NCBI RefSeq assembly: GCF_007741475.1
Contig: NZ_CP036261.1
Coordinates: 3,597,798-3,661,797 of the forward strand
Length of the DNA: 64,000 nt
Direction of reading: 5' to 3'
Source: Rosistilla ulvae
GTDB lineage: Bacteria; Planctomycetota; Planctomycetia; Pirellulales; Pirellulaceae
A model generated the notes under the pieces. That model was not told the DNA's origin. It did no database searches and saw nothing but the letters and a program-made list of their open reading frames with translations. How positions within the stretch are numbered: the stretch's first letter is position 1; each line of letters opens with the position of its first letter. The position numbers and the translations under genes are program-made. Positions 16,166-33,166 of this stretch are shown one piece after another.

Positions 16166-17539
16166 CTAATCTGTCGTTGCGAGATGCCGTTGTCTCCTGG
16201 AAAGTGCGGATTCGGCGCTGCGAAATTGAAGTCGATCTAATGGGCTTTCCACGCGTTTTTCGTTTGGATTTCGCACGTGGGTATAGATTTCTGTCGTTCT
16301 GACGTCGTTGTGCCCCAACAACTGCTGAATGCTACGAATATCTGTCCCGGCCCACAGCAAATGGGTCGCGAAGCAATGGCGGAAGGTATGGCTGGTGACA
16401 TGTTTCAACAGCCCAGCGGCAGTGACAGCCCGCCGCAAATGGACTTGGAATGTGTCGAATGCTAGATGATGCCGATGCAGCATCCCCGTTCTTGGATCCT
16501 TCGCCAGACGTGGCGAAGCAAAAAGAAATTGCCAAGAAAAGTCGCGATGAGCCGCCGGATATTTCTTTGACAACGCATACGGCAACCACACCGAAGCAAC
16601 GCCGTCGTCCAGATCGCACGCATGTAACGTCGCGCGACTCGCGACCCAACGTTTCAACGAGCTGACCAGATGATCGGGCATCGGAACCAAGCGACTCTTG
16701 CCTCCCTTCGACTGATGGATTTCGATTTACCGATTTGCGAAATCAAGGTCCTTAATTCGCAACCGCATCGCTTCGCTGATCCGCATGCCACAACCATACA
16801 ACAGTTGGGCGATCACCAAATGCACGCCCTTCAAACCATTGAGAACCCGCCGCACCTCTTCGGGGTGCAACACCGTGGGAATCTGCTTCCCCTTGCTCGC
16901 TCGGATCGCCTCGATCGGTCCCATGTCCCTTTTCAACACTAACGTGAAGAACTTCAGCAACGCATGAAACGCGGCGTTTTGAGTGGATGGGGCGACATTG
17001 CCGTCGACGGCCAGATCGGTCAGATGCGCCCCCACGTCACTTGCACCAATCGAATCAAAATCCGCAAGACAAGCCAAAGCGCGATCGGCCATAAACGCTT
17101 TCAGTTTGCCGACGTACGACCTTTCGGTGGCGTACGCCATACCGTCTCGTCGCATCGCCCGGCGAAACTCCTGAATCGCGTCGGCTTCACGAGTATTGAT
17201 CTTCCCCACAACATCTTCGATGGAACCGTATCCTTCGCGTTGCGTCCGCTCGAACGCAATAATCTCTAACATCTTATACTTCAGCGGCAACAGATCTTGC
17301 ACCGATTGACGTTGGACCGACGAGCGGTAAACGAGCAAACCTTCAATGATCTTCATCCGCTTCCATGCTGGGACCCCACCATCGCGTTTGGACCGCAAGA
17401 ATGCAATCACCTCTTCAGTGGTAAACCGCCAATCGCAATCCTCTGGCCTGCGTCGATGGAACTCGGCCAATTGTTTGAACCAAATCGACGACCAATGCAA
17501 TGCCTGCTCTTCATACGCCGGCTTGCGATACGTTTCCAT
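16166..17539 (-). pseudogene. intI: Integron integrase (IntI-type tyrosine recombinase) with in-frame stop
   Basis: A 457-codon frame for an integron-type tyrosine recombinase, broken by TAA at 16727-16729 (codon 271, probably once CAA/Gln). Catalytic residues are intact on both sides: R253 (GCGMRISE) before the stop; HTFRH (384-388), GHND (409-412) and Y419 (TTEIYTHV) after it. The stretch at about 314-342 ([17 protein letters not shown] then FSWQFLFAS) matches the additional patch unique to integron integrases, which recognise attC hairpins. The frame is some 120 residues longer than IntI1 at the N-terminus. It diverges from the cassette array, as in all integrons. Unless the stop is read through or is a sequence error, the enzyme is inactive. 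Confidence 0.93.
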
Positions 17540-17970
17540 CGCTCCACTCCCATGGTCAAATCACGCCCCGATTTGATATCTAAGCGGCTCGATAAATCTA
17601 CCCAAACCTCGCAACCTGAATGGCTTAACTCTCATTTAGAAATCTATCCCGACCGTAGCCCCATTCCCATGCGTGGGCTCAACGAATTTTCTTTCGCCGA
17701 AGCAAATTTGCTTGCACAGGGTGCTTCAATTCGCGAGAATCACCCACAGCCATGGTGCAGACACTTGGGCGCAGCCGCCCTAGGTGAGAACAAGTCACCG
17801 ACGGGAAGGAAGTCTGTCCCGACCGACAGCTTGTACTCCTACAGCGGGATGCAGACTTAGCTAGTAACATTGAGAATATGCGCCACACGCACCACTTGTT
17901 CTCACCTGCAACGGGCAGAGAATAAGTTCAAACACGCAATTCCCCCCGGGACGTCCCGGTGAGAAACATA
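17540..17970. promoter_or_regulatory. Region between intI and the first cassette (attI/Pc candidate)
   Basis: By position this stretch should hold the intI promoter, the cassette promoter and attI. I see no convincing gene: the open frames on both strands have no start context or family features. The only recognisable recombination feature is at its right end, where CCCGGTGAGAAACATAGTTC (from 17955) resembles the right half of the array's attC sites, with a core GTT at 17971. It may be attI or a worn attC. Confidence 0.45.
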
Positions 17971-18362
17971 GTTCGCGGTCAAAGATGATTGAATCGCGGG
18001 TTCAGTTGCGCGGTCAGTTAGCGGGTTCTCGGTGCGCGGTCTGTTGCCGGGTTCTCGGTGCGCTGTTGACGCTTGGTACGCGGGTTCAGTTGCGCGGTCT
18101 GTTGGGCATGGTGCGCGGACTGCACTACCGACTAAAGCGGCGGTTCTGTCGCGTGGTACGTTGGCCGGTGCATGGTGCGGATTCCGGGGTTTACGATTGT
18201 CGATTTGCGGCGCGCTCAGACGATGGATACGATAGTGGCGTGGCTGTGGTCGTCGGCGTTCTCGGTTGCACAAGTTGACGCGAACCATGCGATTCACACC
18301 GAGCACTCAAACATCCGTTTACTTCGTGGTTGCTCGTTCGTTCGTGCCGGGTGATCGCGACC
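17971..18362 (+). other. Cassette 1: no clear gene, internal G/T-rich repeats
   Basis: Bounded by the core at 17971 and attC1. Contains two exact direct repeats: a 20-nt copy at 17996-18015 and 18080-18099, and a 16-nt copy at 18022-18037 and 18048-18063. A 97-codon plus-strand frame begins at 17985 but its translation is Arg/Val-rich and repetitive with no family features. It may be a non-coding cassette or a decayed one. Confidence 0.4.
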
Positions 18363-18369
18363 GTTATCG
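18279..18369 (+). repeat. attC1
   Basis: Left core GCGAACCATGCGATTCAC from 18279, right half GCCGGGTGATCGCGACC followed by core GTTATCGGG at 18363. About 91 bp. Confidence 0.7.
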
Positions 18370-18392
18370 GGCAATAACACATTGGCTTGGCA

Positions 18393-19301
18393 ATGAACCC
18401 TGATCTTGATGAAAGCAACACACCTTGGCACATCTTGATTGCAGGGTTGCCCAGAGTATCGAACGAGTTGACATTGGCATCTGGCATCACATTGCAGCCA
18501 CTAAACCAACCGCTTTCTGTTTTTGACCTCGCTGCGGCTGGTGCCGCCGGCTTCCGCAGTTGGGCGTTACTCGAACCGCTTGCATCTGCCTGTACTTGCG
18601 AACTTGCAATTGCTCCAACCGCAGCGCCCAGTGCCGGCTACAACACGCTTAATCGCGGATGGCTTGCCTCGTCACTTCTCGTACTTCGAGGGTTTACAAA
18701 GCACTTGTCTCTCGCATGCTCCAGCTATTCGTGGAATCAGATTGCTGGCCATCAACAAAGAACCGCAGGCACTGCCGATGGCAATCTCCCCAAGTTCGTA
18801 GGCAACGTATTAGACTTTCATCTAAACATCGTCGTGAATAGCGATGCTCGTGTGGACTCTATTTCACCCGACGACATCCAATGGATATCAGACCGGTTCG
18901 ATACGTTTAACAAGATGGCGGCGAATAGTGACTCATTCCGCTTTGCCCTTGAATCAAGCATCGACTGGCGATTCACAAAGGATGGCCGGTCTGCAATTGC
19001 GCGACTTTGGAGTGGTATCGAAGCAATATTTGGCATCAGCTCCGAATTGGTCTACCGTATATCTTTACTAGCAGCGTCGCTGTTGGCACCAAGAGGTACG
19101 CAGCGCAGAGAGAAGTTCCAAGAGATAAAAAAATTGTATGGCCTGAGAAGTAAGGCCGTTCACGGCTCGAAGCTGTCCGACGCCAAAATGGCAGAGGCCG
19201 TAAACGGTTCATTTCGTTTATTGGCTGATTTATTGATTTTGGCAATCGAAAGGGGACATCCGCTCACGCAGGATGATTTTGACAAGGCTGTGTTTGACTG
19301 A
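18393..19301 (+). CDS. Cassette 2: HEPN-domain protein (ApeA-like)
   Basis: A 302-aa protein read from ATG 18393 (an in-frame TTG lies 6 bp upstream; no strong ribosome site for either). The C-terminal third looks like an ApeA-like HEPN domain: [23 protein letters not shown], then the R-x4-H motif RSKAVH with R252 and H257. HEPN domains of this type are often RNases in toxin-antitoxin or phage-defence systems. The N-terminal 180 residues are unrecognised. It is alone in its cassette, so there is no obvious cognate antitoxin; a defence role is inference. Confidence 0.7.
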
Positions 19302-19310
19302 CAGGAAAAG

Positions 19311-19407
19311 CCCGATAACAAAAAAATGCACCCGAGTCGCGAAGTCGGGCGTTTTGACAATGGACAATCTCTCGTCGCGACCGGGTGATTTTAGCCGTTA
19401 TCCGACT
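19311..19407 (+). repeat. attC2
   Basis: Left core CCCGATAACAAAAAAATGCA at 19311; internal GCGTTTTGACAATGGACAAT; right half CGACCGGGTGATTTTAGCC then core GTTATCCGACTGA at 19397. Confidence 0.88.
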
Positions 19408-19435
19408 GAAATCTCGCACGGGTTGACGCAACGCG

Positions 19436-19711
19436 ATGGACCTAACCGAAGACCTGTTTGCGATTGATTGGCCCGAATCGTTTCACGTATTCTACTGCGA
19501 TGGAGGTTCCGAACTTCTGTTGCGCGGCGATGGCATTGGCTTGACGCCCCCGCTTGATGATCCAGACGGCATTGGCGGGTTTGACGCCTTGATTCCAAAA
19601 AAACACCCGAAGCAGCAGCACCAAGGCCGTCGATACATTCGCTACACTGAACTCCATAAAATCGTTGGCGTTGACGGGGTGATTCTCTTTTGTCGGCCAT
19701 TGGATTCGTAG
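19436..19711 (+). CDS. Cassette 3: hypothetical protein, 91 aa
   Basis: A small soluble protein starting at ATG 19436, 39 bp into the cassette. Composition is protein-like ([20 protein letters not shown] at the start, [20 protein letters not shown] near the end), with no signal peptide or membrane segment and no family I recognise. A short inverted repeat GCTTGG/CCAAGC follows the stop before attC3. It is supported mainly by cassette position and orientation. Confidence 0.6.
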
Positions 19712-19739
19712 CTTGGTTCTAACCCTCGCAGCCAAGCGG

Positions 19740-19835
19740 CGGATAACCAAGCCATTCACACGGAGCACGGCTTGCAAGTTTTCACAAATGGATACATCAC
19801 GCTCCGAGCCCGGTGATGGCAATCGTTATCCGACT
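19740..19835 (+). repeat. attC3
   Basis: Left core CGGATAACCAAGCCATTCAC near 19740; internal TTTTCACAAATGGATACATC; right half GAGCCCGGTGATGGCAATC then core GTTATCCGACTGA at 19825. Confidence 0.92.
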
Positions 19836-19841
19836 GATGCT

Positions 19842-20261
19842 ATGCGACTGCTGACCTTCGCCATGCTTTTACTCCTGCCGTTCGGTTGCAATCGGCATGA
19901 CCCGACCAAGCCGATCACGAACGACCAACTTTCGCTTCGGTCGCGGTCTGCAATGCACTACACAACCGTGCAACTACCCGGAACGGATGGTCAATCACCC
20001 GTATCCGTTTCCCAAGACGAGATGCAGCGACTAATTGCTGGCCTGCATCCTATCACACGGGTAAGCAGCAACCCACTCATCGGTGACTGCTACACGCTGG
20101 CCTACCAGGCCGGCATGGACCATACTTGGATCCGCGTTCAATTCATCGGCGACGATTCTTTTATGTTCGAGTGGGACGATATCGTCTACATTGGCGGTGA
20201 TGCAGCTGCATTCCAGGCCGTGGTTGACGGCTTCAGTCCCGGACCTGAGGACGGCGGATAA
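19842..20261 (+). CDS. Cassette 4: small lipoprotein, copy A of a duplicated cassette
   Basis: A 139-aa predicted lipoprotein with a signal peptide and lipobox LPFG-C16 (MRLLTFAMLLLLPFGCNRH). The mature part (TTVQLPGTDGQSPVSVSQ, LIGDCYTLAYQAGMDHTW, DDSFMFEWDDIVYIGG) matches no family I know. The TAA stop is supplied by the attC left core (GGATAAC). A second copy of the whole 515-bp cassette lies at 25558-26072; the proteins differ only at residues 20, 67 and 97 (Asp, Gly and Ile here). Confidence 0.78.
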   Translation: MRLLTFAMLLLLPFGCNRHDPTKPITNDQLSLRSRSAMHYTTVQLPGTDGQSPVSVSQDEMQRLIAGLHPITRVSSNPLIGDCYTLAYQAGMDHTWIRVQFIGDDSFMFEWDDIVYIGGDAAAFQAVVDGFSPGPEDGG

Positions 20262-20350
20262 CCATCACGTGAACCGGAGCACGCGAGCTAGCGTTTTTGG
20301 CAATTGAAAATCTTTCGCGCGTGCCCGGTTACGCGTATCGTTATCCGACT
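20256..20350 (+). repeat. attC4
   Basis: Left core GGATAACCATCACGTGAACC at 20256; internal TTTGGCAATTGAAAATC; right half GTGCCCGGTTACGCGTATC then core GTTATCCGACTGA at 20340. Identical to attC12 up to the right-core boundary. Confidence 0.92.
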
Positions 20351-20402: not shown

Positions 20403-20807
20403 GTGCTTCGAACTGTAACCTTAACGACTTTGCTTCTTGCGCTAGCTTCCGCATGTTCGTTTGCGGAGGAGCCCAAAACTGCAACAACAGTTTTTTGTGA
20501 CAACGTTGACTCAACGCTTCGTCTTTACTTTCCACCGGCCGTGACGAGCCTGCAAGACGGACGACCCAAATCCGAGTTCGTGCCAGACGTTGCGGCAATT
20601 TATGTCGATGACACGTATGTCGGCGACGCCATCGTAAACCTCCATGGGCACACACCAACCCTACGGTTTGCCGCTGGGCAACACACGATTCGCGTCCAAA
20701 TGTCAAAGAATCGCATCTTTGAATCGAAAATCCACTTTCTCGGACGTGGTTCATTGCAATATCTTTCTGTCGATTTTGATCGCAAAGCCACTCCGGACAA
20801 ACAATGA
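20403..20807 (+). CDS. Cassette 5: secreted hypothetical protein
   Basis: About 134 aa from a GTG at 20403, chosen because it begins a good signal peptide (LRTVTLTTLLLALASACSFA); the frame is open further upstream, across attC4. The mature region has a beta-rich stretch (VAAIYVDDTYVGDAIVNL, LRFAAGQHTIRVQMSKNR) reminiscent of PEGA-type domains, where a short beta motif carries a glycine-rich turn. Function unknown. The stop is 1 nt from the attC5 left core. Confidence 0.62.
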   Translation: MLRTVTLTTLLLALASACSFAEEPKTATTVFCDNVDSTLRLYFPPAVTSLQDGRPKSEFVPDVAAIYVDDTYVGDAIVNLHGHTPTLRFAAGQHTIRVQMSKNRIFESKIHFLGRGSLQYLSVDFDRKATPDKQ

Positions 20808-20808
20808 C

Positions 20809-20905
20809 GGATAACCACGTGATGCACGCGGAGTCGGGCTTGCGGGCGTTTCGGCGGTGGTAAGATTGACTCTCCCGACCCGGTGATCACAAACGTTACC
20901 CGACT
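20809..20905 (+). repeat. attC5
   Basis: Left core GGATAACCACGTGATGCACG at 20809; right half GACCCGGTGATCACAAAC then core GTTACCCGACTGA at 20895 (C in place of T in the core). Confidence 0.9.
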
Positions 20906-20913: not shown

Positions 20914-21510
20914 ATGAACCGCCGCACCGACACTTACGCCGATTTTGTCGACCATCCACGATATGGGCGAAGCCCGCGGTTCACAGGGCTCAATCCTATC
21001 GATGACTTCTCTCGCGGCATCTACCTTGGCTGGCATTCCCACGCTCACGAACGCATATCCGAAACTGCGATCGTCGCTAATACCGACCGCCAGCCCGATG
21101 CCACAATCCCGGTCACTCACTACTTCGATCTGCGACGTCAATGCCGTGACTGCGGTCGCAACTTTATTTTCTTTGCCGACGAACAACGCCACTGGTACGA
21201 AACTTTACATTTCTACTTGGGCGCTGATTGCGTACGCTGCATCGAATGTCGCGTGGCCGAACGCGACACGAAACGACTGCGCGAGATATACGAAACGCTT
21301 CTTAATCAAAACGCACGGTCCGATCGCGACGCTCTTGAGCTTGCCGAAACTGCTATGCTGTTGATTGATCGCGGGGTATTTGGCCATCGCTGTGTTGAAT
21401 GCGTTCGATCGCTGCTAAACGCGCTTCCTGCTGACTCAAAGATTCGCCGACATGCAACTTTTCGTGATGTCGACGCTCGCTCCACGGAACGTATCCAAGG
21501 CGGCGGGTAA
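20914..21510 (+). CDS. Cassette 6: zinc-ribbon domain protein
   Basis: A 198-aa protein from ATG 20914, only 19 bp into the cassette. It carries a probable zinc ribbon: C77-R-D-C80 (QCRDCGRNFIFFADEQRHWY), then C106 and C109 (DCVRCIEC). This resembles the probable zinc-ribbon (zinc_ribbon_4-like) family in which a CxxC...FTAGEQ block precedes a second CxxC. The C-terminal part is helical. The stop codon lies in the attC6 left core (GGGTAAC). Role unknown. Confidence 0.72.
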   Translation: MNRRTDTYADFVDHPRYGRSPRFTGLNPIDDFSRGIYLGWHSHAHERISETAIVANTDRQPDATIPVTHYFDLRRQCRDCGRNFIFFADEQRHWYETLHFYLGADCVRCIECRVAERDTKRLREIYETLLNQNARSDRDALELAETAMLLIDRGVFGHRCVECVRSLLNALPADSKIRRHATFRDVDARSTERIQGGG

Positions 21511-21595
21511 CCAAGTCGTGAACCGGAGCGACCGGCAACGCGTTTACAAATGAAAAATCTTGGGCGGTCGCCCGGTTACGACCGCCGTTATCCGA
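21506..21595 (+). repeat. attC6
   Basis: Left core GGGTAACCAAGTCGTGAACC near 21506; internal TTTACAAATGAAAAATC; right half GTCGCCCGGTTACGACCGCC then core GTTATCCGA at 21587. Confidence 0.9.
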
Positions 21596-21611
21596 ATAAA
21601 AGAGGAAGAGT

Positions 21612-22214
21612 ATGAAAGCCTTAGCTTCGTGCATAGTTATTCTCGGGATAGTTTGTCCTCCGACAGCAGCAGTCGAACCGCTGCAATCGCACCGATTTTC
21701 GATCGTGCAAGCAGCGTCGCGTACTATTCTGATTGATAACAATTCCGGCGAGTCCTGGGTACTCGATGAAGATCCCGTATTGCATTGGCAACCAATTCAA
21801 AGAGGAGATGTCTCTTCACTGCCGCCAGCATCTGCCCTATACGACGATGCGCGCGAGTCACAGCTAACACTTAAAGTTGAAACGAGGCGAACACCAACCG
21901 ATGGCCGAAACGGCACCATCAAGGCCACGGTAACCAATCGTACTGCGACGGCTTGCAAGGACATATTGGTTTCATTTACACCCAGCAACAGTCTAATCAT
22001 AAAGGCGACAGATGGCGCAATCAAATTAGATACAAACCATTATGTATGGAAGATCAAGAGGCTTGAAGTGAACGAATCGAAGATATTTGAAGCGGTAATA
22101 CAAGTCGACATTGAAGCTTCCGGAAAATCGACCACACCTGTTTGGGCAGTTCAAGAGCGTTCTCAAGCCCCGCAGACCAAGACGGTACATGTCGACAATT
22201 CCGAACCAAATTGA
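21612..22214 (+). CDS. Cassette 7: secreted protein with DUF11/CARDB-like beta domain
   Basis: A 200-aa protein with a good ribosome site (AGAGGAAG before ATG 21612) and a signal peptide (KALASCIVILGIVCPPTAA). The middle and C-terminal part reads like a DUF11 or CARDB-type Ig domain: GTIKATVTNRTATACKDILV, SFTPSNSLIIKATDGA, YVWKIKRLEVNESKIFEA, VIQVDIEASGKS. Such domains usually mediate surface adhesion or structure. One of the few cassette genes here with a clear Shine-Dalgarno. Confidence 0.68.
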   Translation: MKALASCIVILGIVCPPTAAVEPLQSHRFSIVQAASRTILIDNNSGESWVLDEDPVLHWQPIQRGDVSSLPPASALYDDARESQLTLKVETRRTPTDGRNGTIKATVTNRTATACKDILVSFTPSNSLIIKATDGAIKLDTNHYVWKIKRLEVNESKIFEAVIQVDIEASGKSTTPVWAVQERSQAPQTKTVHVDNSEPN

Positions 22215-22271
22215 ATTTACGTTTTTAGAGATGGAATTCAGTAAAACATGATCGTGTGTTTGTATGTTCGC

Positions 22272-22364
22272 GGATAACCAACGCATTCAACGGCGCCGGG
22301 CTTGCGAACTTTCACCAATGGAACGTCTACTGTCCCGGCCCGCTGATGCGGCCGTTATCCGACT
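22272..22364 (+). repeat. attC7
   Basis: Left core GGATAACCAACGCATTCAAC at 22272; internal CTTTCACCAATGGAACGTC; right half GGCCCGCTGATGCGGCC then core GTTATCCGACTGA at 22354. Confidence 0.91.
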
Positions 22365-22382: not shown

Positions 22383-22805
22383 ATGACAAGCCTCCCATTG
22401 CACGTACAGTTTCGCAGCTTCGTCGATGACGACGCGAAATACGAACGCTTTGTCCATGCTTGCATTCGCTCCCGTTCCGGCCGTGGACGTCTGCGACACT
22501 GGCAGGAGCTGCTTTGGTCCAACTTTGTTGACGAGGTGCCCGGATTTACTGGCATGCCAGTGGATGACATACTTGACCACTTCTACTTCTGTCCGTTACA
22601 CCAGAATCCTCTCACGGAAATGGCGGTTCACATCCCCGCTGATTTGATTGTCACGACCGTCGGCTCCTCCGATCCAAACACACCCTATGGATTCCGCCAT
22701 CCATTCGCGGTTCCGCACTCCTCCGAAACTCACGAGATTCGCCTGGACACCTGCCCCAAGTGCTTGGCACTTGCTGACCGAAACCGCGAGAACCCGAGCG
22801 GATAA
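22383..22805 (+). CDS. Cassette 8: hypothetical protein with Cys/His pairs
   Basis: A 140-aa soluble protein from ATG 22383. Possible metal ligands occur as FYFCPLHQNP and DTCPKCLAL, suggesting a zinc site, but no family is recognised. The start lies 29 bp into the cassette with no clear Shine-Dalgarno. Its TAA stop is part of the attC8 left core (GGATAAC). Confidence 0.6.
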   Translation: MTSLPLHVQFRSFVDDDAKYERFVHACIRSRSGRGRLRHWQELLWSNFVDEVPGFTGMPVDDILDHFYFCPLHQNPLTEMAVHIPADLIVTTVGSSDPNTPYGFRHPFAVPHSSETHEIRLDTCPKCLALADRNRENPSG

Positions 22806-22892
22806 CCATCCGATGCACCGGAGTCGGGCTTGCGGCCGTTTTCAAATGGAACATCAACACTCCCGACCCGGTGATCGGTAACGTTATCCCAT
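22800..22892 (+). repeat. attC8
   Basis: Left core GGATAACCATCCGATGCACC at 22800; internal GTTTTCAAATGGAACATC; right half GACCCGGTGATCGGTAAC then core GTTATCCCATC at 22883. Confidence 0.91.
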
Positions 22893-22898
22893 CTATCA

Positions 22899-23687
22899 AT
22901 GCTGAATCCAGAATTGATCTTGACCGCTGAGTTCTACGTCAAGACGGAAGCCGATGACTGGATTCCGCCAGACAAGGTCGAACTGTTGTTGCGTCAACGA
23001 AGACCGAGTTCTGAACTTTCGTGGGAAATCGGACGCAAGCACGTAGAAGCAAACATCGAGCGATTGCAGGAAATGGGCTGCCCGCCAATTCTCCTCAAGT
23101 CCTCGGAACACGTGCTTGACAAGACTCTGCACGTTTCACTTCCGATCCAAGGCTCCGAATCACGTCTAGAGGGATTCACGACTGGTTTCTCGTTCTACGA
23201 TGGCTGCATGAGTCTTCGGTGCAATCCGTTTGACATTGGCACGCTAAAACTTGGAGCGAAACGTCTTGCTGCTGATTTGGATTTAAACTTCGACCTGCGC
23301 TTTGGCGACGAGGGTGACCTAAACCTGGAAATTGCACCGGGGGCTGTTGACTTTGAACACGCGATGAACAAGCGTTTTGCCGGCCACAGTTTTGGTGAGT
23401 TGCACACCGAAGAGACTCCCGACTGGGAATCCGCTATTCGATCGGGGATACGCAAATGGTTAGAAAAGCATCCTGATCCAAATCTTGTTGCGCGATGGCT
23501 ATCGGTGACTACCCCGGAGATTCTCGCGACAAATCTATGTCAGCGAATTGAATCAATTGATACAATCGTGTCGTGTGGTCGGGGTTTCTACGGCGATGCG
23601 AAATGGCACGACAATTTCTTAGTTCGCTATCAGGAATGGACGGCGGTCGTCAATCTTCCCGGCGTCCCGGAGCCGTTGATCGCGTGA
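22899..23687 (+). CDS. Cassette 9: hypothetical protein, 262 aa
   Basis: The longest fully unknown cassette gene. Starts at ATG 22899, 16 bp into the cassette. Soluble, acidic, mixed alpha/beta composition (WEIGRKHVEANIERLQEMG, LDLNFDLRFGDEGDLNLEI, SAIRSGIRKWLEKHPDPNLV). No signal peptide, membrane segment or catalytic motif that I recognise. It ends 5 bp before the attC9 left core. Confidence 0.65.
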   Translation: MLNPELILTAEFYVKTEADDWIPPDKVELLLRQRRPSSELSWEIGRKHVEANIERLQEMGCPPILLKSSEHVLDKTLHVSLPIQGSESRLEGFTTGFSFYDGCMSLRCNPFDIGTLKLGAKRLAADLDLNFDLRFGDEGDLNLEIAPGAVDFEHAMNKRFAGHSFGELHTEETPDWESAIRSGIRKWLEKHPDPNLVARWLSVTTPEILATNLCQRIESIDTIVSCGRGFYGDAKWHDNFLVRYQEWTAVVNLPGVPEPLIA

Positions 23688-23692
23688 AATTG

Positions 23693-23785
23693 GGATAACC
23701 AAGCGATGAACGCGGAGTGGCCGACAGCGCGTTTACAAATGGAAGATCAACCGCGGCCACCCGGTTATCGCAATCGTTATCCGAC
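23693..23785 (+). repeat. attC9
   Basis: Left core GGATAACCAAGCGATGAACG at 23693; internal GTTTACAAATGGAAGATC; right half GCCACCCGGTTATCGCAATC then core GTTATCCGACTTA at 23776. Confidence 0.92.
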
Positions 23786-25567: not shown

Positions 25568-25574
25568 TGATGCT

Positions 25575-25994
25575 ATGCGACTGCTGACCTTCGCCATGCT
25601 TTTACTCCTGCCGTTCGGTTGCAATCGGCATGCCCCGACCAAGCCGATCACGAACGACCAACTTTCGCTTCGGTCGCGGTCTGCAATGCACTACACAACC
25701 GTGCAACTACCCGGAACGGATGGTCAATCACCCGTATCCGTTTCCCAAGACGAGATGCAGCGACTAATTGCTGCCCTGCATCCTATCACACGGGTAAGCA
25801 GCAACCCACTCATCGGTGACTGCTACACGCTGGCCTACCAGGCCGGCATGGACCATACTTGGGTCCGCGTTCAATTCATCGGCGACGATTCTTTTATGTT
25901 CGAGTGGGACGATATCGTCTACATTGGCGGTGATGCAGCTGCATTCCAGGCCGTGGTTGACGGCTTCAGTCCCGGACCTGAGGACGGCGGATAA
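25575..25994 (+). CDS. Cassette 12: small lipoprotein, copy B of a duplicated cassette
   Basis: A 139-aa lipoprotein, the second copy of the cassette 4 gene. Core-to-core length is again exactly 515 bp. Reading both copies side by side I find three base differences, at 25633, 25774 and 25863, giving Ala20, Ala67 and Val97 here. The attC sites are identical. The stop is again within the attC left core. Confidence 0.78.
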   Translation: MRLLTFAMLLLLPFGCNRHAPTKPITNDQLSLRSRSAMHYTTVQLPGTDGQSPVSVSQDEMQRLIAALHPITRVSSNPLIGDCYTLAYQAGMDHTWVRVQFIGDDSFMFEWDDIVYIGGDAAAFQAVVDGFSPGPEDGG

Positions 25995-26082
25995 CCATCA
26001 CGTGAACCGGAGCACGCGAGCTAGCGTTTTTGGCAATTGAAAATCTTTCGCGCGTGCCCGGTTACGCGTATCGTTATCCGAT
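25989..26082 (+). repeat. attC12
   Basis: Same sequence as attC4 from GGATAACCATCACGTGAACC to the right core GTTATCCGA at 26073, after which the two loci diverge. Confidence 0.92.
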
Positions 26083-26127: not shown

Positions 26128-26748
26128 TTAGGCTGCGATTTCATCCTGCAAGATTCCGTCTTTGAAGGAACGTCCTTCGATGACGTGAGTGATCTTCTCG
26201 TGGCTGTCCAGGCGTCTCCATTGCTTGCTGGCCGATTGAGCAAGCTTGAACATCATCGCCCGACTCGCGCGCCGTGTGCCGCTGCCTTTGGTCTTTCGAT
26301 GGCGAAGGCGGATCGTAGCGAAATTCGATTCGATTGGGTTGGTCGTCCGTAAATGGCTCCAGTGCTCTGCCGGGAAGTCGTAGAACGTCAACAACACGTC
26401 GCGGTCTTTCTGCAAGCAGTCACAAGCCGCCGCATATTTCGCTCCGTACTTTTCAATGAATCCATCGAACGCTGTGTTAGCGTCGGCCTTCGTTTCCGCT
26501 TGCCAGATTTCGTGTAGGTCACCCTTCGCTTTGGGCTGTACGCTTTTGGGCATCTTGTTCAGAACGTTGGCTGTTTTGTGAACCCAGCAGCGTTGCTCAC
26601 GCGTCTCTGGGAATACCTTTCGGATCGCCGCCCAGTAACCAAGAGCACCGTCGCCAACGGCAATATTGGGGGCCAAGTTCAGCCCCCGTCGCTTCAAATC
26701 GACGAGCAACTCGCACCAGCTCTGCTCGCTTTCGCGATAGCCGTCTAA
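26128..26748 (-). pseudogene. IS256-family transposase, C-terminal remnant
   Basis: The C-terminal half of a mutator-type (IS256) transposase. Typical blocks: LDGYRESEQSW, IAVGDGALGYWAAIRKVFPE, REQRCWVHKTANVLNKMPKS, LLTFYDFPAEHW, LRTTNPIESNFATIRLRHRK. Family members are about 400 aa; here coding similarity starts abruptly at LDGYRESEQSW (about 26748) and the frame beyond (to 26832) is antisense to an antitoxin remnant. So the N-terminal half and one IS end are lost. It cannot move on its own. Confidence 0.88.
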
Positions 26749-26928
26749 CACGGCGATCGACTCCGGGTTGTGCATGCAATCTGGGACACACTTCCCGATG
26801 ATGTTGATCTTCCGCTCCCCTCCGAGCAACAAGCTGAATTAGACCGCCGACTAGCGGCTCATCGTTCGGATCCGTCCACTGCGATTTCCCGTAACGAACT
26901 AATGCGTCGGCACGAGGACGGTCGCTGA
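26749..26928 (+). pseudogene. Antitoxin of the addiction-module (TIGR02574-like) type, 5' truncated
   Basis: An open frame from 26749 to the TGA at 26926-26928 reads DRLRVVHAIWDTLPDD, then LPLPSEQQAELDRRLAAH and ELMRRHEDGR. The IWDTLPDD and LPLS..Q.AELDRRL blocks are typical of antitoxins paired with ParE toxins. The N-terminus is replaced by the IS256 remnant. Its stop overlaps the toxin ATG (TGATG), showing the original operon structure. Confidence 0.75.
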
Positions 26929-27224
26929 TGTGGCATTTGTCGTACCGCCCCGAGATTGAAAACGACGTGGTTGCCGCCGTCACATGGTATGACGACAAGC
27001 AAATTGGGTTGGGCGACTATTTCCCGATCGAATACTTAGCGGACGTTCGACGAATTTGTGACACCCCACTTCTGTTTGCGATCGCTGCAAATGGACTGCG
27101 TCCTTGTCGGCTTAAACGCTTTTCGTACGTCATTCATTTTGACGTCGATGGAAAAGAGATCCTAATCGTTGCGTCGATTGCGGGTGGACGGGATGACCCT
27201 GCATTCGTTCATCGGAACGGATAA
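26928..27224 (+). CDS. Cassette 13: RelE/ParE-family toxin
   Basis: A 98-aa complete toxin-like protein: MWHLSYRPEIENDVVAAVTW, YDDKQIGLGDYFPIEYL, GLRPCRLKRFSYVIHFDVDG, VASIAGGRDDP. These blocks are characteristic of the WYxxK..GLG subgroup of RelE/ParE toxins, which inhibit gyrase or cleave mRNA. The antitoxin gene that overlaps its start is truncated at the 5' end, so the toxin may be silent for lack of a promoter or restrained by another antitoxin. Stop lies in the attC13 left core. Confidence 0.85.
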   Translation: MWHLSYRPEIENDVVAAVTWYDDKQIGLGDYFPIEYLADVRRICDTPLLFAIAANGLRPCRLKRFSYVIHFDVDGKEILIVASIAGGRDDPAFVHRNG

Positions 27225-27315
27225 CCAAGGCTTGTTGACGAAGCGGCGGTGGTAGCTGTTTTTGTCCGCTTGCACATCAATCGCCGCCGTCCGCGCAACC
27301 CTTTCGTTATCCGAC
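27219..27315 (+). repeat. attC13
   Basis: Left core GGATAACCAAGGCTTGTTGA at 27219; right half GTCCGCGCAACCCTTTC then core GTTATCCGACTGA at 27306. The middle differs from the other sites (CTGTTTTTGTCCGCTTGCAC), as does attC14. Confidence 0.87.
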
Positions 27316-27330: not shown

Positions 27331-27816
27331 ATGATGTGTCGCACCTTGACCGTTGTGTTTGCGATTCTTGTCACTTCCGCGGGGGGCCCTGACGATACCG
27401 AGACATCATCACGAACGATCGTGAACGCGACGATCGACAAGCACCCAAATAGCGATAACCTGATCTTCACGGGTGCCTACCTCCACTACGAAACAGTGGA
27501 ATCAACCTACCATGTTGAATCTCAACGCGAACAACGACACCTCGCAAACCGAAAACAAATTGTGACGCTTCTGCAATCCGAAATCGTCCGATTGGATGTT
27601 GAACAACGGAGTTTTGCAACGACCTCTGGTAACAAACTTACGGTTGCGAATGTCCAGGCTCGCTTCAAATCTAATCCGCTCGCGCTTATGCTGCCGGACG
27701 GTGCTACAATTTATCCGCAACTCGCTTTAGCGCTCAACCCGGACACCGTTACCGTCTCCAGGGTCGATCGTCGTTCTAAACCGCTTCGACTTGTGCCTCG
27801 TCCTGACGGCGGATAA
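27331..27816 (+). CDS. Cassette 14: secreted hypothetical protein
   Basis: A 161-aa protein with a short signal peptide (MCRTLTVVFAILVTSAGGPD) starting at ATG 27331, 25 bp into the cassette; the second codon is also ATG. The mature part (NLIFTGAYLHYETVESTYHV, RKQIVTLLQSEIVRLDVEQR, ALNPDTVTVSRVDRRS) has no family features that I recognise. Its TAA stop is in the attC14 left core. Confidence 0.62.
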   Translation: MMCRTLTVVFAILVTSAGGPDDTETSSRTIVNATIDKHPNSDNLIFTGAYLHYETVESTYHVESQREQRHLANRKQIVTLLQSEIVRLDVEQRSFATTSGNKLTVANVQARFKSNPLALMLPDGATIYPQLALALNPDTVTVSRVDRRSKPLRLVPRPDGG

Positions 27817-27906
27817 CCATCCGATGCACCGGAGCGGCCGTGGTTGCCCTTTTTCTCTGATTGCATGTCGTTCGTCGCCGTCCGATGATCGGTAACGTTG
27901 GTCGCT
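27811..27906 (+). repeat. attC14
   Basis: Left core GGATAACCATCCGATGCACC at 27811; right half GTCCGATGATCGGTAAC then a variant core GTTGGTCGC at 27897. Confidence 0.85.
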
Positions 27907-27912
27907 TGGATT

Positions 27913-28709
27913 ATGTTTATGAATAGAACCGTTTGGCGAGATGACGCGGCACGCTTCCGTATGGATGATTGGTTCAATCGGTTCCAAGAGCGTATCTGCA
28001 TGCCTGTCGAGAATCGTAACGTGCCATCGCGTTATGGCGATAGCCATGCTCTGATCACCGGGACGGTGGATGGGCCGCCTCTGGTCTGCCTGCACGCGAT
28101 GCGAACTGGATCAGCGTTTCTTGTTTCGGAATTAAACCCTCTGCTGGAACGGTTTCGCGTGATTGCTCCGGACTTGCCAGGGCAGTCTGTCCGCGGTCCG
28201 CAAGTACGACTTTCCCTTAACGACGACTCCTATGCTCGCTGGCTGTTCGATGTGCTAGATGGTCTCGGGCTCGAAACGGTTTCGCTGTTTGGTGTGAGTT
28301 GGGGCGGATTCGTAGCTCGTCAATCCGCTACATTAGCTCCGGACCGGGTCGACAGCCTGGCCCTTTTAGTTCCCGCCGGGATTGTCCGGGGTTCTCATGT
28401 GACCGGGCTAATAAAGATGGCTTACCCAATGCTCCGCTACAGCGTACGCCGATCCGAGCCAAATTTGAAACGATGGCTTTCCTCGCTGTTTACGACTTGG
28501 GATGATCATTGGGCGGGTTTTACTAGAGATGCCGTGCGAGACATGCCTTTCGATCTTAGAATTCCCCCACTGGCATCTGATCAAGACTTGCAAAAACTTA
28601 CCATGCCGGTTCTCGCCCTCGGTGCGGAAAACGACATTTGCTTTCCTGGTAAGCAGCTTGTGAACCGAATCTGTGACCAAGCCCCACATTGCCGAGGGGA
28701 AGTCATTCC
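27913..28709 (+). pseudogene. Cassette 15: alpha/beta hydrolase, 5' part, interrupted by IS4-family element
   Basis: An alpha/beta-hydrolase fold enzyme: oxyanion region VCLHAM, RFRVIAPDLPGQS, nucleophile elbow GVSWGG, and a late acid region LALGAENDICFPG. Start at ATG 27913 or 27919. An IS4-family element is inserted at 28710 after EVIP; the frame then runs 124 bp into the IS and stops at 28833. The missing C-terminus (ASNHCPPTTPEFRRWLADK, containing the expected catalytic His) continues in the same frame after the IS at 30261-30381. Removal of the IS and one target copy would restore a 305-aa protein. Confidence 0.87.
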
Positions 28710-30252
28710 CTGTCGATTACCCACAAGTCATTGGTCTGGTCCGAAGGCTTGCCAGCAGAGGGCGAAGTCGAGCATTCGCCGCGTGCCTCGCCAGATCACT
28801 TCGGCTCCCGGCGGACCGTCGCCTTCGCGGTGATTGTAGCCGCCAAGGGTCGCAAGGACCGGGATGAATTGTGACAGCTCAGGAGCTTGCTTTGGGGGAG
28901 CCGTCTTTTTCACCACTTTCCAGACCGACTTCCATTCCGCTTCGCTGAAGACGACATCACAGGGAAGCTCTGGACACTCGCGGCCTAAGAAGGTCACAAA
29001 CATGATCCGCCATGCGATCACTTTGTAAAACATCAACGCGCGGATCAGTCGGTCTCTCGCTTCGAGTTGAATCTCTTCGACCCGGCAGCCAGTTTTGAAA
29101 ACTCGAAAGAATACTTCGATTGGCCAACGAGCCACATACAAATCCACAATCCGCAGCGTCTGGGAAATCGTGTCGACCGGCAGAGAACTCAGTAACAGCC
29201 AGTCGACTTCGGTTCCGTCGCCTGGGCCATCGATCTCGCTCACCCAAACGACACTGATCTCGACCGGCGGCATCGAAGACTGCTTGTTGTGTGGCGCACG
29301 AAGAGTCATCCGCTTCGCTCGAATTTCTAACTTCGCAGTGCGTGCTTCACGGCCGGGGTGTTGTTTGTTTCCTGATCCTTTGGTTCGCTCGGGCGTTTGG
29401 GGAAGCTGGACTTCGCGGTAAGCGACCGGCTGGGCGGATGCGATTTCGGCACGCATTTTCTTATAAGCCGCAGGCCCGCCATCGGGGTCTTTCTCCGGCA
29501 ACGAGCGTTTTCGCTGCGAGCGAATGACGAACTGAGCCGGTGTTTCATGCTGATCGGCTTCGACGAAAATGTCGTAGATGTCTCCTTCGCGATCGGCCAG
29601 CGAAACGATCTGAGTTTCAGGACATTTTCCGGCGATCTCGCAGGCCTTGCGGTAACCATCGAGCCATCGTTGCCCTTCGCCGGTGTGTAGGGGTTGGCCT
29701 TCTCGCTTCTTGCTGGTGCCGAGCGCTTCTTTGTCGCGATCGTAGAACTTAACACCGACCACCCCGAGACAAAGTTTCTCCGGCGTGAAGGCGATGTGGG
29801 AATGATCGTAAAGTCCACGGCGGCCTAAGCGATCGAGATTGCGGACGCCTTCGGGCGGATGCGCGGTGTAGTCCAGTTCGGTGGTATCTTGTGCGATGCA
29901 AACGGTGTCTTGGGCTTTGATTCGTTGGAGTGTCTTTTCAGCGTGAGCCCCGAGAATGGCTTCGGGATCGACGTTGGGGTTATCCAATAGACGGTAGGCG
30001 GCTTTGGTTTCGTCCCAGCCACTGCAAGCTTCGTTGATACTGGCCGAAGGGTTGGCCGCCAGCGAGGCGAGCAACGCTTCGGCTCGATCGTTGAGACGTT
30101 TGTCTCCAAGTTGAATATCTTGAAATTCGTATGCGATACTGGTCGGTTGCATGCTTTCACCTTGAGATTTCATTGTGCAAAATGAAATACTACAAGCGCA
30201 AATACCGTGCCAAAACGAGCTATTTTTGCGGCGACTTGTGGGTAATCAACAG
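28710..30252 (-). mobile_element. Complete IS4-family insertion sequence, 1543 bp
   Basis: Terminal inverted repeats of 20 bp with one mismatch: CTGTCGATTACCCACAAGTC at 28710-28729, and the complement of CTGTTGATTACCCACAAGTC at 30233-30252. The 8-bp GTCATTCC at 28702-28709 is repeated at 30253-30260 as the target duplication. One transposase gene fills the element on the minus strand. Both ends and the gene look intact, so it may be active and its insertion fairly recent. Confidence 0.93.
28728..30173 (-). CDS. IS4-family transposase
   Basis: A 481-aa DDE transposase of the Tn5/IS50-like branch. The N-terminal DNA-binding part contains LGDKRLNDRAEALLASLAAN and GWDETKAAYRLLDNP. Catalytic Asp residues sit in CIAQDTTELDY and SLADREGDIYD. 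The catalytic Glu lies in the Y-x2-R-x3-E-x6-K signature (YVARWPIEVFFRVFK). An alternative start is the Met eight residues in (MQPTS). The stop codon overlaps the inner end of the left inverted repeat. Confidence 0.93.
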   Translation of the reverse strand: MKSQGESMQPTSIAYEFQDIQLGDKRLNDRAEALLASLAANPSASINEACSGWDETKAAYRLLDNPNVDPEAILGAHAEKTLQRIKAQDTVCIAQDTTELDYTAHPPEGVRNLDRLGRRGLYDHSHIAFTPEKLCLGVVGVKFYDRDKEALGTSKKREGQPLHTGEGQRWLDGYRKACEIAGKCPETQIVSLADREGDIYDIFVEADQHETPAQFVIRSQRKRSLPEKDPDGGPAAYKKMRAEIASAQPVAYREVQLPQTPERTKGSGNKQHPGREARTAKLEIRAKRMTLRAPHNKQSSMPPVEISVVWVSEIDGPGDGTEVDWLLLSSLPVDTISQTLRIVDLYVARWPIEVFFRVFKTGCRVEEIQLEARDRLIRALMFYKVIAWRIMFVTFLGRECPELPCDVVFSEAEWKSVWKVVKKTAPPKQAPELSQFIPVLATLGGYNHREGDGPPGAEVIWRGTRRMLDFALCWQAFGPDQ

Positions 30253-30260: not shown

Positions 30261-30381
30261 GGCGAGCAACCATTGCCCGCCAACAACTCCTGAATTTCGT
30301 CGCTGGCTGGCAGACAAAATCACAGCATTCTGCATAGAAACCGCATCGGATGCCCCCGAGGCGCCGAGTCGAGCGTTTTGA
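30261..30381 (+). pseudogene. Cassette 15: alpha/beta hydrolase, 3' part
   Basis: Continues the frame of the interrupted hydrolase directly after the second copy of the target duplication: ASNHCPPTTPEFRRWLADKI, with H as the likely catalytic His. It ends at TGA 30379-30381, inside attC15. Confidence 0.8.
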
Positions 30382-30425
30382 CAATTGGGAACCACTCGCG
30401 GCGACCGGGGGATCCGTACCATCCA
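30334..30425 (+). repeat. attC15 (degenerate)
   Basis: Left part GAAACCGCATCGGATGCCCC; internal GCGTTTTGACAATTGGGAAC closely matches attC2; right half GCGACCGGGGGATCC then a decayed core GTACCATCC at 30416. Confidence 0.7.
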
Positions 30426-30458
30426 GCCTACTACTGACACTTATTGAGGTCCAAAACC

Positions 30459-30833
30459 ATGCGTCCAAGCTTCGTATGTTTACTGGTCTTCGACATCGTC
30501 GCGGACATTGCTACCGAGTTGCCCGCTCAATCCCCCGCGCTGGAGGCGATCGCGCGTGAACGGTTCAATCAAGTGTTCGTCAAAGTCATCGTGCCCATTC
30601 CCCTCTCACACTCCTTGCCGGGACGGACCCTTCGTTGAGTCTTGGGTTGCCGAGCGGATCAAACAACTTGGGGAGTCCGAATACTTTGCTGTCACAGCCT
30701 GAGTGCCTGTTTGTGCTGGGCTGCTTGCGGACGATATCGTAGACAATCGCGTTCGTCTTAACGGAAAATACTCTACTGCCTCGGCGGCAGAGATGTTCCT
30801 GAACGGGAAAATTGTCGCTTGTCGGTTAGCGTA
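30459..30833 (+). pseudogene. Cassette 16: decayed gene
   Basis: ATG 30459 opens a frame (MRPSFVCLLVFDIVADIATE) that stops at about 30638. Protein-like sequence continues in the +1 frame (DGPFVESWVAERIKQLGESE), meets TGA at 30700-30702, and continues again in that frame (GLLADDIVDNRVRLNGKYST, AEMFLNGKIVACRLA) to a TAG near 30831. One frameshift and one nonsense change would explain this. Family not recognised. Confidence 0.45.
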
Positions 30834-31097
30834 GGTGGGTTTACGCCAGCCGGTGGCGAGGCGCAAATCAGGCTGCGAGATGAACCAGGTAGTCGAGCAG
30901 GTTGCACTGTGCGGTTGCATACTGGCAAAGAATGAAATCGGATTAGGATCGAAGAAGGGCTCCGCTATGTGGCGGTCAGCATTGCGCCGCCACCTCAGGA
31001 GAGTTCCACGTCACGCGGCGATGCCAAGTAGTCATTACAAAGCGCTCGCCCGGCGCCGTCGATGACGCGGGGTGTGAGATCGGAGTCTTCCGTTCGT

Positions 31098-31125
31098 GCC
31101 CGGTTACGACAACCGCTACCCGACT
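31098..31125 (+). repeat. attC16, right half only
   Basis: GTGCCCGGTTACGACAACC followed by a mutated core GCTACCCGACTGA at 31115. The left half is not recognisable within the 100 bp upstream. Confidence 0.6.
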
Positions 31126-31169
31126 GAGGAAATTAAGCTAGATCGACAAACCCGTGGGCGTCACCACTC

Positions 31170-31448
31170 TCTGATGTTGTCACGGAGCCGACCACTCGAA
31201 CCAAACGGTTGGTCTACATTTGGGGCTGGTTGCCTGCCGTGATTCTTGGCGTCATGCCTGCGACGCCGGCAGAGATGCTCTCGGTCATCCTGGCGGTGGC
31301 CTTTGCCCTTCCCGTTTTCCTACCGCTGTAGGTATTGGCGTCCGACATTGACCGAATGTTGCGATGGATATTCATTGCTGTGTTGACGTTGACTTTTGTT
31401 TCCCTCGCCTCTGCAAATCGGTTCTCGCTCGGCCAATACCCGTGGTGA
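31170..31448 (+). pseudogene. Cassette 17: membrane-protein gene with in-frame stop
   Basis: A single frame encodes hydrophobic segments RLVYIWGWLPAVILGVMPAT and MLSVILAVAFALPVFLPL, then TAG at 31329-31331, then MLRWIFIAVLTLTFVSLASA, ending at TGA 31446-31448. The three likely membrane helices flank one premature stop. No start codon is found in frame near the cassette start, so the N-terminus is also damaged. Confidence 0.5.
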
Positions 31449-31617
31449 TCGCCATTGTGTTCGCGATCACGAAAGTAGTGTTGAGCTACAAATGACTTCG
31501 TGTGTTTACGGCGCTCACTGTTTCGCATGTCATGGGCTGTTGCTCGGCCCGCTGGCCGTCATCATACTATCAGTTCCGTAAGTTCTGGTCGCCGACCGAA
31601 ATCCTGCACCAAACAAC

Positions 31618-31710
31618 GGGTAACCATCGTATGCAACGGAGCGGCGGTGGAAGTGTTTTACAAATGGTGGCTCAACTCCCGCCACCCGCTGATGCGTACC
31701 GTAGTTCAAA
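31618..31710 (+). repeat. attC17
   Basis: Left core GGGTAACCATCGTATGCAAC at 31618; internal GTTTTACAAATGGTGGCTC; right half CCACCCGCTGATGCGTACC then a changed core GTAGTTCAA at 31701. Confidence 0.85.
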
Positions 31711-31712
31711 AC

Positions 31713-32507
31713 ATGATGAATGATCGACGTGACTTCCTCAGAAACAGTTTCGCTGCGGCGAGCGTTGCAACCTTGTCTACCTGTGCAAGCGGTCACGAAC
31801 AGGAGTCGTCCGCAAAACCCTCCGATGTCGACGGGTATAGCTATCGATTGCCTAAGCTTAAACAAGGTTGCCGTTTACTTTTCCAGGGTGATTCCATTAC
31901 CGACATGAAATGGGGACGCAACGAAAAAGATCGTAATCACTATCTTGGCCACAGCTACGTCTTTCTAATTGCCGCTCGACTTGGCGTTGACATGCCGAAC
32001 GCCCAACTTGACATCTACAATCGTGGAATGAGTGGTCACAAGGTCGCTGATTTGCGTGGGCGTTGGAAGAAGGACGCGATCGACATGAAGCCCGATCTAC
32101 TCAGCATCCTTATTGGCGTCAATGATGTTGGAAAAAATCTCGATGGGGTCGACGTCGAACGCTGGGAAGCTGACTATCGCTTCATTCTTAGCGCCAGCCG
32201 GGAAGCGAATCCAGATTTGAAGTTGGTCTTGCTCGATCCTTTTGTCTTGCCTTCCGGTCGGCTATCTAACAAAGATTCTTTCAAGAAATGGCGTGATCAG
32301 GTCGAACGACTGATCCCTATTGTCGGTCGGCTTTCTAAGGAATTCGATACCGTACACGTCAAGACCCAGGAAGTTTTCGACGCTGCTGCCCAAGCAGGAT
32401 CACCTGACAACTGGATTTGGGACGGTGTTCATCCGCTGCCGCAAGGGCACGAACTAATCGCTCGCAGTTGGCTGCACGAAGTCAGTGCGAGATGGGGTTC
32501 GATGTAA
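31713..32507 (+). CDS. Cassette 18: secreted SGNH/GDSL-family hydrolase
   Basis: A 264-aa lipase/esterase-fold protein. I start at ATG 31713, directly after the attC17 core; the frame upstream crosses attC17. Twin-arginine-type signal NDRRDFLRNSFAAASVATLS. SGNH blocks: block I LLFQGDSITD, block II NRGMSGHK, block III LIGVNDVG (Asn), block V WDGVHPLPQGHELIA (Asp and His). Members deacetylate carbohydrates or act as esterases. The attC17 core lies only 12 bp upstream, so it is the last recognisable cassette gene of the array. Confidence 0.87.
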   Translation: MMNDRRDFLRNSFAAASVATLSTCASGHEQESSAKPSDVDGYSYRLPKLKQGCRLLFQGDSITDMKWGRNEKDRNHYLGHSYVFLIAARLGVDMPNAQLDIYNRGMSGHKVADLRGRWKKDAIDMKPDLLSILIGVNDVGKNLDGVDVERWEADYRFILSASREANPDLKLVLLDPFVLPSGRLSNKDSFKKWRDQVERLIPIVGRLSKEFDTVHVKTQEVFDAAAQAGSPDNWIWDGVHPLPQGHELIARSWLHEVSARWGSM

Positions 32508-32651
32508 AAAGGGAAGGTCGTCGTCTCTACTTGCACAAAACCGACAATGGATTTGTATCTAGCAGTTTACTGTCCACATCAGATATCTTGCAAAGCCATC
32601 GAATCCCCCATTCCACGAACTCAAAGCTGACGGCGCCTCGGTGGAGGGCTC

Positions 32652-32807
32652 ATGTACTCAGCGCCTTCCCCCTACTGTTCTGGGCGGGGCTTTATTGCCG
32701 TGCATGCCTTTGGCGACGATGGTGGCGAGTCTAGGCCGCTCATCGCGAATGCCTATATTCTGTTCGCAACGATGGTCATTGGACTCGCGGTCCTTTCCGC
32801 CGCCTGA
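32652..32807 (+). CDS. Possible 51-aa single-helix membrane protein
   Basis: ATG 32652 to TGA 32805-32807. N-terminal MYSAPSPYCSGRGFIAVHAF, then a C-terminal hydrophobic helix (ANAYILFATMVIGLAVLSAA). It could be a real small protein or the surviving tail of a lost membrane gene. Supported only by composition. Confidence 0.3.
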   Translation: MYSAPSPYCSGRGFIAVHAFGDDGGESRPLIANAYILFATMVIGLAVLSAA

Positions 32808-32840
32808 CGACGGGAACTCATTGGAACGATAACGACGCTC

Positions 32841-32915
32841 TGCTGATTGCTGATTGCTGATTGCTGACTGCTGACTGCTGACTGCTGATCGCTGATCGCT
32901 GATCGCTGATCGCTG
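32841..32915. repeat. Heptanucleotide microsatellite
   Basis: Ten tandem 7-bp units from 32841 to 32910, in order three TGCTGAT, three TGCTGAC, one TGCTGAT and three CGCTGAT, with a partial CGCTG. The blockwise base changes suggest expansion of variant units by slippage. Confidence 0.93.
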
Positions 32916-33082
32916 CGGTCGTCAATTGGCAGGTGCTTTCCTTTCCCGGTATTCTCATCGTACCGACTGCCGTCGTTTTCTTGTCCAGTTGATCGATGAG
33001 ACGGCCGCGAGGTAAACAGCCAGGTCGTTAGCCAGCAACATAGGGCAATGTCACGCCACCGCAGAAATGAATAACAACAAAA

Positions 33083-33166
33083 CGGGCAACCGACGCGATG
33101 AATCAGGCAGCAATTGAAATCAACGCGCAGCGTCGCCGCCGGGGTTGCGTTGGTCGTTCGCCGAAC
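33083..33166 (+). repeat. attC18 (degenerate, probable end of array)
   Basis: Left part CGGGCAACCGACGCGATGAA; internal AGCAATTGAAATCAACGC; right half GCCGGGGTTGCGTTGGTC then core GTTCGCCGA at 33156. Recognisable only by comparison with the intact sites. Confidence 0.55.

Follow-up and report, generated by a model that had tools for sequence, protein, structure and literature searches.

The 64,000-nucleotide stretch of the Rosistilla ulvae chromosome considered here (the window; positions 3,597,798-3,661,797, the genome being one contig with 7,475,804 bases) raises the question of whether a minus-strand recombinase gene and the series of short genes and repeated sites that diverges from it constitute an integron, and whether this integron can still exchange gene cassettes. 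A reading of the sequence alone had proposed a chromosomal integron in a planctomycete. The gene content of the host supports a planctomycete: the PSD1 family (PF07587), which we take to be typical of that phylum, has 57 matches in the genome, and none of 14 control genomes has any. The integron interpretation also holds, because the family score of the integrase, its IntI-specific patch, its phylogenetic position, the covarying bottom-strand attC sites and the polarity of the array agree. The locus is very probably a sedentary chromosomal integron, the integrase of which has been knocked out, probably recently; with its integrase broken, the array is therefore probably frozen.

Integrase gene and its interruption

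The integrase gene (intI) lies on the minus strand, its frame running from 17539 to 16166 and diverging from the plus-strand array, as the sequence-only reading had it. Read through its single lesion, the 457-residue frame scores 416.2 bits against TIGR02249, the NCBI integron-integrase model (cut-off 265), and the genome contains no second gene of this grade, its four other TIGR02249 matches being below the cut-off. Membership of the IntI family thus stands, but the gene is not one open reading frame (ORF) as had been supposed: codon 271, overlooked earlier, is an in-frame TAA, the sole lesion detected. It closes an ORF of 270 aa (16727-17539) that encodes an N-terminal extension, the core-binding domain and the catalytic arginine, and leaves a same-frame remnant (16166-16726) with the IntI patch and the other catalytic residues (the identity of the catalytic residues, the arginine included, being our assumption). 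The best solved relative of both parts is IntI4 (2a3v; E 8.7e-14 for the 5' part and 1.2e-35 for the 3' part), the alignment of the latter taking in the whole run of the IntI patch (KYP...RHH) and continuing up to the end. This patch, the additional domain of IntI that is missing from XerC/D, had been recognized in the sequence-only reading and is confirmed by the alignment, with W336, R356, H357 and H358 invariant across 22 IntIs. The 21 other IntIs have 57 invariant columns in common, 36 of them past the stop, and the window protein conforms at every one.

Phylogenetic analysis, set beforehand as a test that might refute the assignment, places the integrase inside the IntI clade. In the IQ-TREE phylogeny of 51 rows, a branch (starred in the tree) separates all 49 IntI rows from two other recombinases of the same genome, and the window IntI pairs with that of G029 (support 100/97) and next with that of G001 (100/96), a genome of the same genus.

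Because the core-binding part and the catalytic arginine precede the stop and the other catalytic residues follow it, the TAA would end translation after the arginine-bearing part and before the remaining stretch of the catalytic domain, and the truncated integrase should be inactive. The stop has probably arisen recently, as suggested by the retention of all 57 invariant columns. A signal of relaxed selection past the stop was sought by NG86 comparison with L017 and L018; synonymous sites were saturated or nearly so, and no clear signal emerged. The array is not a CALIN (cluster of attC sites lacking an integron-integrase), since the broken intI gene is nearby, yet it may behave functionally like one, and would remain frozen unless another integrase acted in trans. 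Just past the 3' end of intI, at 15240-16075, there is a tandem array of four to five copies of a unit of about 173 bp, 77-82% alike.

The integron might instead be fully active, the TAA being a sequencing error or a codon that is often read through. A single lesion in a frame of 457 residues, the preservation of every invariant column and the presence of a 522-bp duplication with three differences would all fit an active integrase, and the class 2 integrase IntI2 has an internal stop, suppression of which restores activity (PMC2426708). However, the single-contig genome reads TAA; stop codons are found in three of the 38 IntI matches over the cut-off in a panel of 79 genomes, own included (78 others), namely that of the window, that of G012 (same family, at another position) and one of those in G024; and a 2008 survey classed nearly one third of its intI genes as pseudogenes (PMC2426708). 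An active integron is on these grounds unlikely, and the loss of integrase function is preferred.

attC sites and cassette array

A covariance model built on the aligned bottom strands of 10 window sites (25 pairs) identifies, at a threshold of E<=1e-5, 16 attC sites in the window that read on the bottom strand (E 7.1e-22 to 2.5e-6), all on the minus strand. The training set comprised attC 2 (19312-19406, 87.9 bits), attC 3 (19740-19834, 90.4 bits), attC 4 (20255-20349, 91.4 bits), attC 5 (20808-20904, 86.0 bits), attC 6 (21504-21596, 88.8 bits), attC 7 (22271-22363, 90.5 bits), attC 8 (22799-22892, 95.8 bits), attC 9 (23692-23785, 90.4 bits), attC 11 (25474-25567, 96.7 bits) and attC 13 (27218-27315, 70.6 bits). 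Six sites were held out, of which attC 12 (25988-26082, 89.4 bits) is a near-copy of attC 4 and the other five are independent: attC 1 (18278-18372, 34.6 bits), attC 10 (24708-24802, 59.7 bits), attC 14 (27810-27906, 49.8 bits), attC 15 (30341-30428, 42.3 bits) and attC 16, the final site of the array (31617-31710, 55.6 bits). Outside 18.3-31.7 kb the window has one match, at E 0.066, and with filters off a decayed half-site is found at 31051-31124 on the minus strand (11.8 bits, E 0.36). Seven of the 24 model matches read the same sites on the top strand, with a lower score than the bottom-strand reading in every case; this is in part built in, as the model derives from bottom strands.

The sites, previously described as about 90 bp long with paired cores, measure 88-98 bp and do possess such cores. 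GGATAACCA at one mismatch or fewer occurs 20 times in the window, a count reached in none of 100 shuffles. GTTATCCGACTGA at up to three mismatches occurs 22 times versus 14.66 expected, and is at that tolerance a weak consensus on its own because 6 of 100 shuffles reach the count; its six exact and three one-mismatch copies are every one within the array.

Structure was evaluated on 70 rows at E<=1e-5, drawn from the window, from a single locus in each of G001, G002 and G012, and from a further two loci in the genome of the window. Base counts used 67 rows, after removal of three top-strand ones, and pairing used the 69 distinct rows, among which two are top-strand. Pairing cells amount to 94.3%, compared to 70.5% in shuffled alignments, and cells changed on both sides number 339 versus 101.8; none of five measures was reached in 500 shuffles, and pairing falls to 33.5-44.0% if the partner is slid by one to three columns. 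The first extrahelical base is T in 65 of the 67 rows and G in two; the second is C in 54, A in eight, G in four and T in one; the spacing between them is six in 55 rows and seven in 12. The extrahelical bases are accordingly for the most part T-N6/7-C and fit the T-N6-C class, and the paired R boxes, unpaired spacer, variable loop and bottom-strand orientation of attC sites are all recognizable by sequence and structure. The bottom-strand hairpins, extrahelical bases and unpaired central spacer for which the sequence-only reading had advised looking, with an attC covariance model, were thus found, with strong covariation. At first the extrahelical bases were taken for a new type, because PMC2727003 puts the weight on G and T; this idea was abandoned, T-N6-C being a known attC class that is efficiently excised by IntI1 (PMC3053210, where the order is written T-N6-G).

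Another possible origin of the repeats is ordinary tandem duplication, unrelated to the adjoining recombinase. One cassette is present in two copies, the plus-strand stretches 19826-20347 and 25559-26080 (each a cassette with the following core) differing at three positions in 522 bp from core to core, and there is an integrase-less attC array in the same-genus genome G002. However, the other cassettes vary in content and length, the sites keep their structure while their sequence changes, and a divergent intI gene adjoins the array here as in G001, G012 and G029, which makes tandem duplication highly improbable. Under a further reading, the hairpins would serve as transcriptional terminators or regulatory RNA elements and not in recombination. 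This would account for a stem-loop after most ORFs, but is barely credible given the conserved AAC/GTT cores at fixed ends, the paired R boxes, the T-N6/7-C extrahelical bases, the unpaired spacer and the extent of the duplicated cassette from core to core.

From the putative crossover point (17971) to the end of the last site (31710), the integron array comprises 16 cassettes, or 17 with the half-site, which is fewer than the 18 or so estimated from the sequence alone; the first cassette is approximately 17972-18363. As that estimate also had it, the genes are oriented away from the integrase on the plus strand. The expectation of one gene per cassette applies only roughly: two cassettes have a second ORF, two contain opposite-strand transposase genes, and certain stretches are short of ORFs (30423-31117 and 31118-31704 have no plus-strand ORF over 231 bp, and in 19400-19827 a minus-strand ORF of 381 bp exceeds the plus-strand ORF of 276 bp). 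The cassette scan was followed to 35 kb of the window, and up to that point there is no attC behind the GDSL lipase/acylhydrolase gene (31714-32507, plus strand) except for a 16.9-bit match at 34518. For this reason, and because the G001 array has the same gene (83.6% identity over 1207 aligned bases) at its distal end, the GDSL gene looks like the distal flank and not a cassette. A cassette end near 33.1 kb was considered and rejected, there being no attC match at that position. Past the ORF 23833-24408, the sequence 24408-24500 starts like the left end of an attC (GGACGAACCATC, by eye) and has no model match; perhaps it is a decayed site between two fused cassettes. At approximately 33282-33406 there is a short dispersed repeat, matched dozens of times in G000 and G002 and less often in G001.

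Several points weigh against the reading of this locus as an integron that recently lost its integrase. Ten of the 16 window sites were in the training set of the model, and the pairing alignment was fitted to the model, so that it leans towards the structure, and includes two distinct top-strand rows. In the tree, the outgroup rows sit on long branches, and the bootstrap had yet to converge. Three stretches of the array are poor in ORFs, and the coding status of most cassette ORFs rests on their length because they have no firm family match. The stop might be a sequencing error or be suppressed, and the attI motif (see below) was seen by eye and not picked out by a repeat count.

By analogy with tested integrases, an intact IntI would cleave attC in its folded bottom strand, at the step from C to A within the R' box (PMC2727003), and join incoming circular cassettes to attI beside intI, such that the newest cassettes would be those nearest intI (a presumed direction of growth) with their genes pointing away from it. 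The duplicated cassette may be explained by excision and re-insertion by the once-active IntI.

N-terminal extension and putative attI

The window IntI resembles IntI4 (2a3v, VchIntIA) in its catalytic domain and IntI patch, but has approximately 115 N-terminal residues that IntI4 does not. It belongs to a clade of 11 rows (98/94, also starred in the tree) that unites it with 10 N-terminally extended IntIs of same-family relatives; the extension of the G029 protein is only partly alignable. Compared as a profile (10 proteins), the extension aligns with the IntI core-binding domain over 72 columns (hhalign prob 82, P 1.1e-5) and may thus be a duplicated domain. A further proposal, that these IntIs are two-site DNA binders in which a second, duplicated core-binding (SAM-like) domain would bind extra repeats over a long attI, by a logic comparable to that of lambda integrase with its arm sites, is decidedly doubtful. 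The profile match, the clade of extended IntIs and the motifs that inspection by eye shows upstream of intI (window, G001, G029, G012 and G046) speak for it. Long N-termini also occur outside the clade, in L067 (Thermodesulfovibrionales), L073 and L106 (Desulfonema), of other phyla. The 'clade 15' IntIs of Deltaproteobacteria are about 120 aa longer (PMC2426708), a similar extra length. Four of the extended IntIs (L018, L019, L022 and L027) have long C-terminal open-frame tails, and the window IntI has no such tail.

A putative attI with its presumed crossover at 17971 is located beside intI at 17783-17974 (plus strand), where by-eye comparison with the upstream regions of relatives brings out GGTGAGAACAAGT-like motifs at 17783-17795 (plus), 17894-17906 (inverted), 17914-17929 (degenerate) and 17958-17974 (with the GTT at 17971). 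Again by eye, G001 and G029 have similar motifs ahead of their first cassette, and G012 and G046 have motifs that are related or of another kind; attI1 has two direct repeats (PMC4792948). Repeated 11-mers were counted in 18 regions upstream of intI, with 20 first-order Markov shuffles of each, and the shuffle maximum was exceeded for five of 10 extended IntIs (window, 4 copies; G029, 5; G046, 6; G039, 4; G038, 5) versus two of eight unextended ones (9 and 7 copies). Upstream repeats were therefore rejected as a mark of extended IntIs, the leading words also being in part other than attI motifs. Against the two-site proposal, the word from the window is inside the first cassette, that from G039 is a run of G, and that from G046 differs from the motif seen by eye. 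Because the leading word in the window is outside the motif, the attI is regarded as likely rather than established. The ORF of the first cassette (17985-18278), which may not be a real gene, contains four GGTGCGCGGTC-like words.

Cassette contents

Three non-transposase products exceed the Pfam cut-off: a protein with a zf_Tbcl treble-clef domain (20914-21510, E 2.4e-12), an alpha/beta hydrolase (27898-28709, Abhydrolase_1 E 3.5e-17) and the GDSL lipase past the last attC. The hydrolase gene is interrupted at 28710 by an insertion sequence of the Tn5/IS4 type (28710-30252, minus strand) that has terminal inverted repeats and has duplicated 8 bp of its target exactly, GTCATTCC; G002 contains a copy of this insertion sequence that is 99.5% identical. 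Another cassette contains a fragment of a Mutator-family transposase gene (26128-26832, minus strand; E 4.4e-33, profile positions 204-377 of 379).

The remaining cassette genes, all on the plus strand, are less readily classified. Matches under the curated cut-offs were obtained for 21612-22214 (weak, DUF11, E 0.0029), 24851-25333 (PIN-like, E 0.0079; possibly the toxin of a toxin-antitoxin pair) and 26928-27224 (weak, ParE-toxin-like, E 0.097), and the product of 20406-20807 has a signal-peptide-like start by eye and a weak PEGA match (E 0.14). The 304-aa product of 18387-19301 has no Pfam match, and no family was assigned to 22383-22805, 22899-23687 (262 aa), 27331-27816 or 23833-24408, the last of which shares its cassette with a second ORF (24496-24699). 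The first copy of the duplicated stretch includes a 139-aa ORF (19842-20261). None of the defence families of PADLOC was found at E<=0.01 among 10 cassette proteins. All three cassette proteins that were searched lacked a convincing match in the 78 other genomes, the best being one weak match each (E 8.5e-4, 7.8e-4 and 3.5e-4, 27-34% identity). The cassettes are nevertheless not simply strain-specific: 26755-27257, which includes the ParE-like gene, matches a sequence inside the attC cluster of G002 (74% over 505 bases), and other cassettes have relatives within the genus.

Integron decay among relatives

Integrons are common among the relatives, as 27 of the 79 genomes, own included, have a TIGR02249 match over the cut-off. 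Genome-wide counts with the attC model were made at E<=0.1, with top-strand readings included and up to 150 candidates scored per genome. G001 has a stop-free IntI at 6.075 Mb and at least 82 such matches, its array being elsewhere on the chromosome than its match to the left flank of the window (3.9 Mb). G002, of the same genus, has no IntI match over the cut-off (best E 3.1e-22) but at least 45 matches to the attC model, including a cluster at 3.682-3.692 Mb. When three stretches of G002 were searched by tblastn with the integrase of the window, no integrase remnant was detected (E 0.34 or worse). On either side of this G002 cluster there are reversed matches to the window flanks 7717-14060 and 60824-62634; relative to the shared flanks, the cluster is placed at the opposite end and runs in the opposite direction. 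These positions fit an inversion of the segment between the flanks.

In G012, 148 of the 150 candidates scored are attC-model matches, and nearly all of those listed form one array of about 85 kb (G012:C1, approximately 229-314 kb, L049) beside the TAA-bearing IntI. Elsewhere in the genome to which the window belongs there are two isolated attC-like sites, L050 10227-10319 (72.6 bits) and L051 8326-8420 (69.5 bits), and no IntI-like sequence was found in the 17-20 kb around them (best tblastn E 0.073).

Neither a planctomycete integron nor a broken intI gene is new, and the sequence-only reading had rated the novelty of the locus too high. Rhodopirellula baltica was included in an integron survey (PMC3108266), a covariance model of Planctomycetes attC sites was derived from chromosomal sites (PMC8352920), and Planctomycetes are listed among integron hosts (PMC8618304, PMC9668308). 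The planctomycete chromosomal integrons of these sources (PMC3108266, PMC8352920) are like that of the window in having intI and an attC array, and that of the window differs in its nonsense codon. In the inactivated integrons of Xanthomonas, among other intI pseudogenes (PMC2426708, PMC8618304), an array is also kept by a broken integrase, whereas the phylum and the lesion differ. A literature search made without the species name, which consequently says little, returned no title on this particular array. In these respects the window adds another ordinary integron to those in print.

The interest of the locus rests on the decay series of which it is part and, with less certainty, on the N-terminal domain. 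Among the routes by which integrase-less attC clusters arise, PMC8618304 lists the loss of intI. The window is an added example of integron decay, and a single genus presents three states: an uninterrupted intI gene with attC arrays (G001), a nonsense-mutated intI with its array kept (the window), and an integrase-less array within the same flanks (G002).

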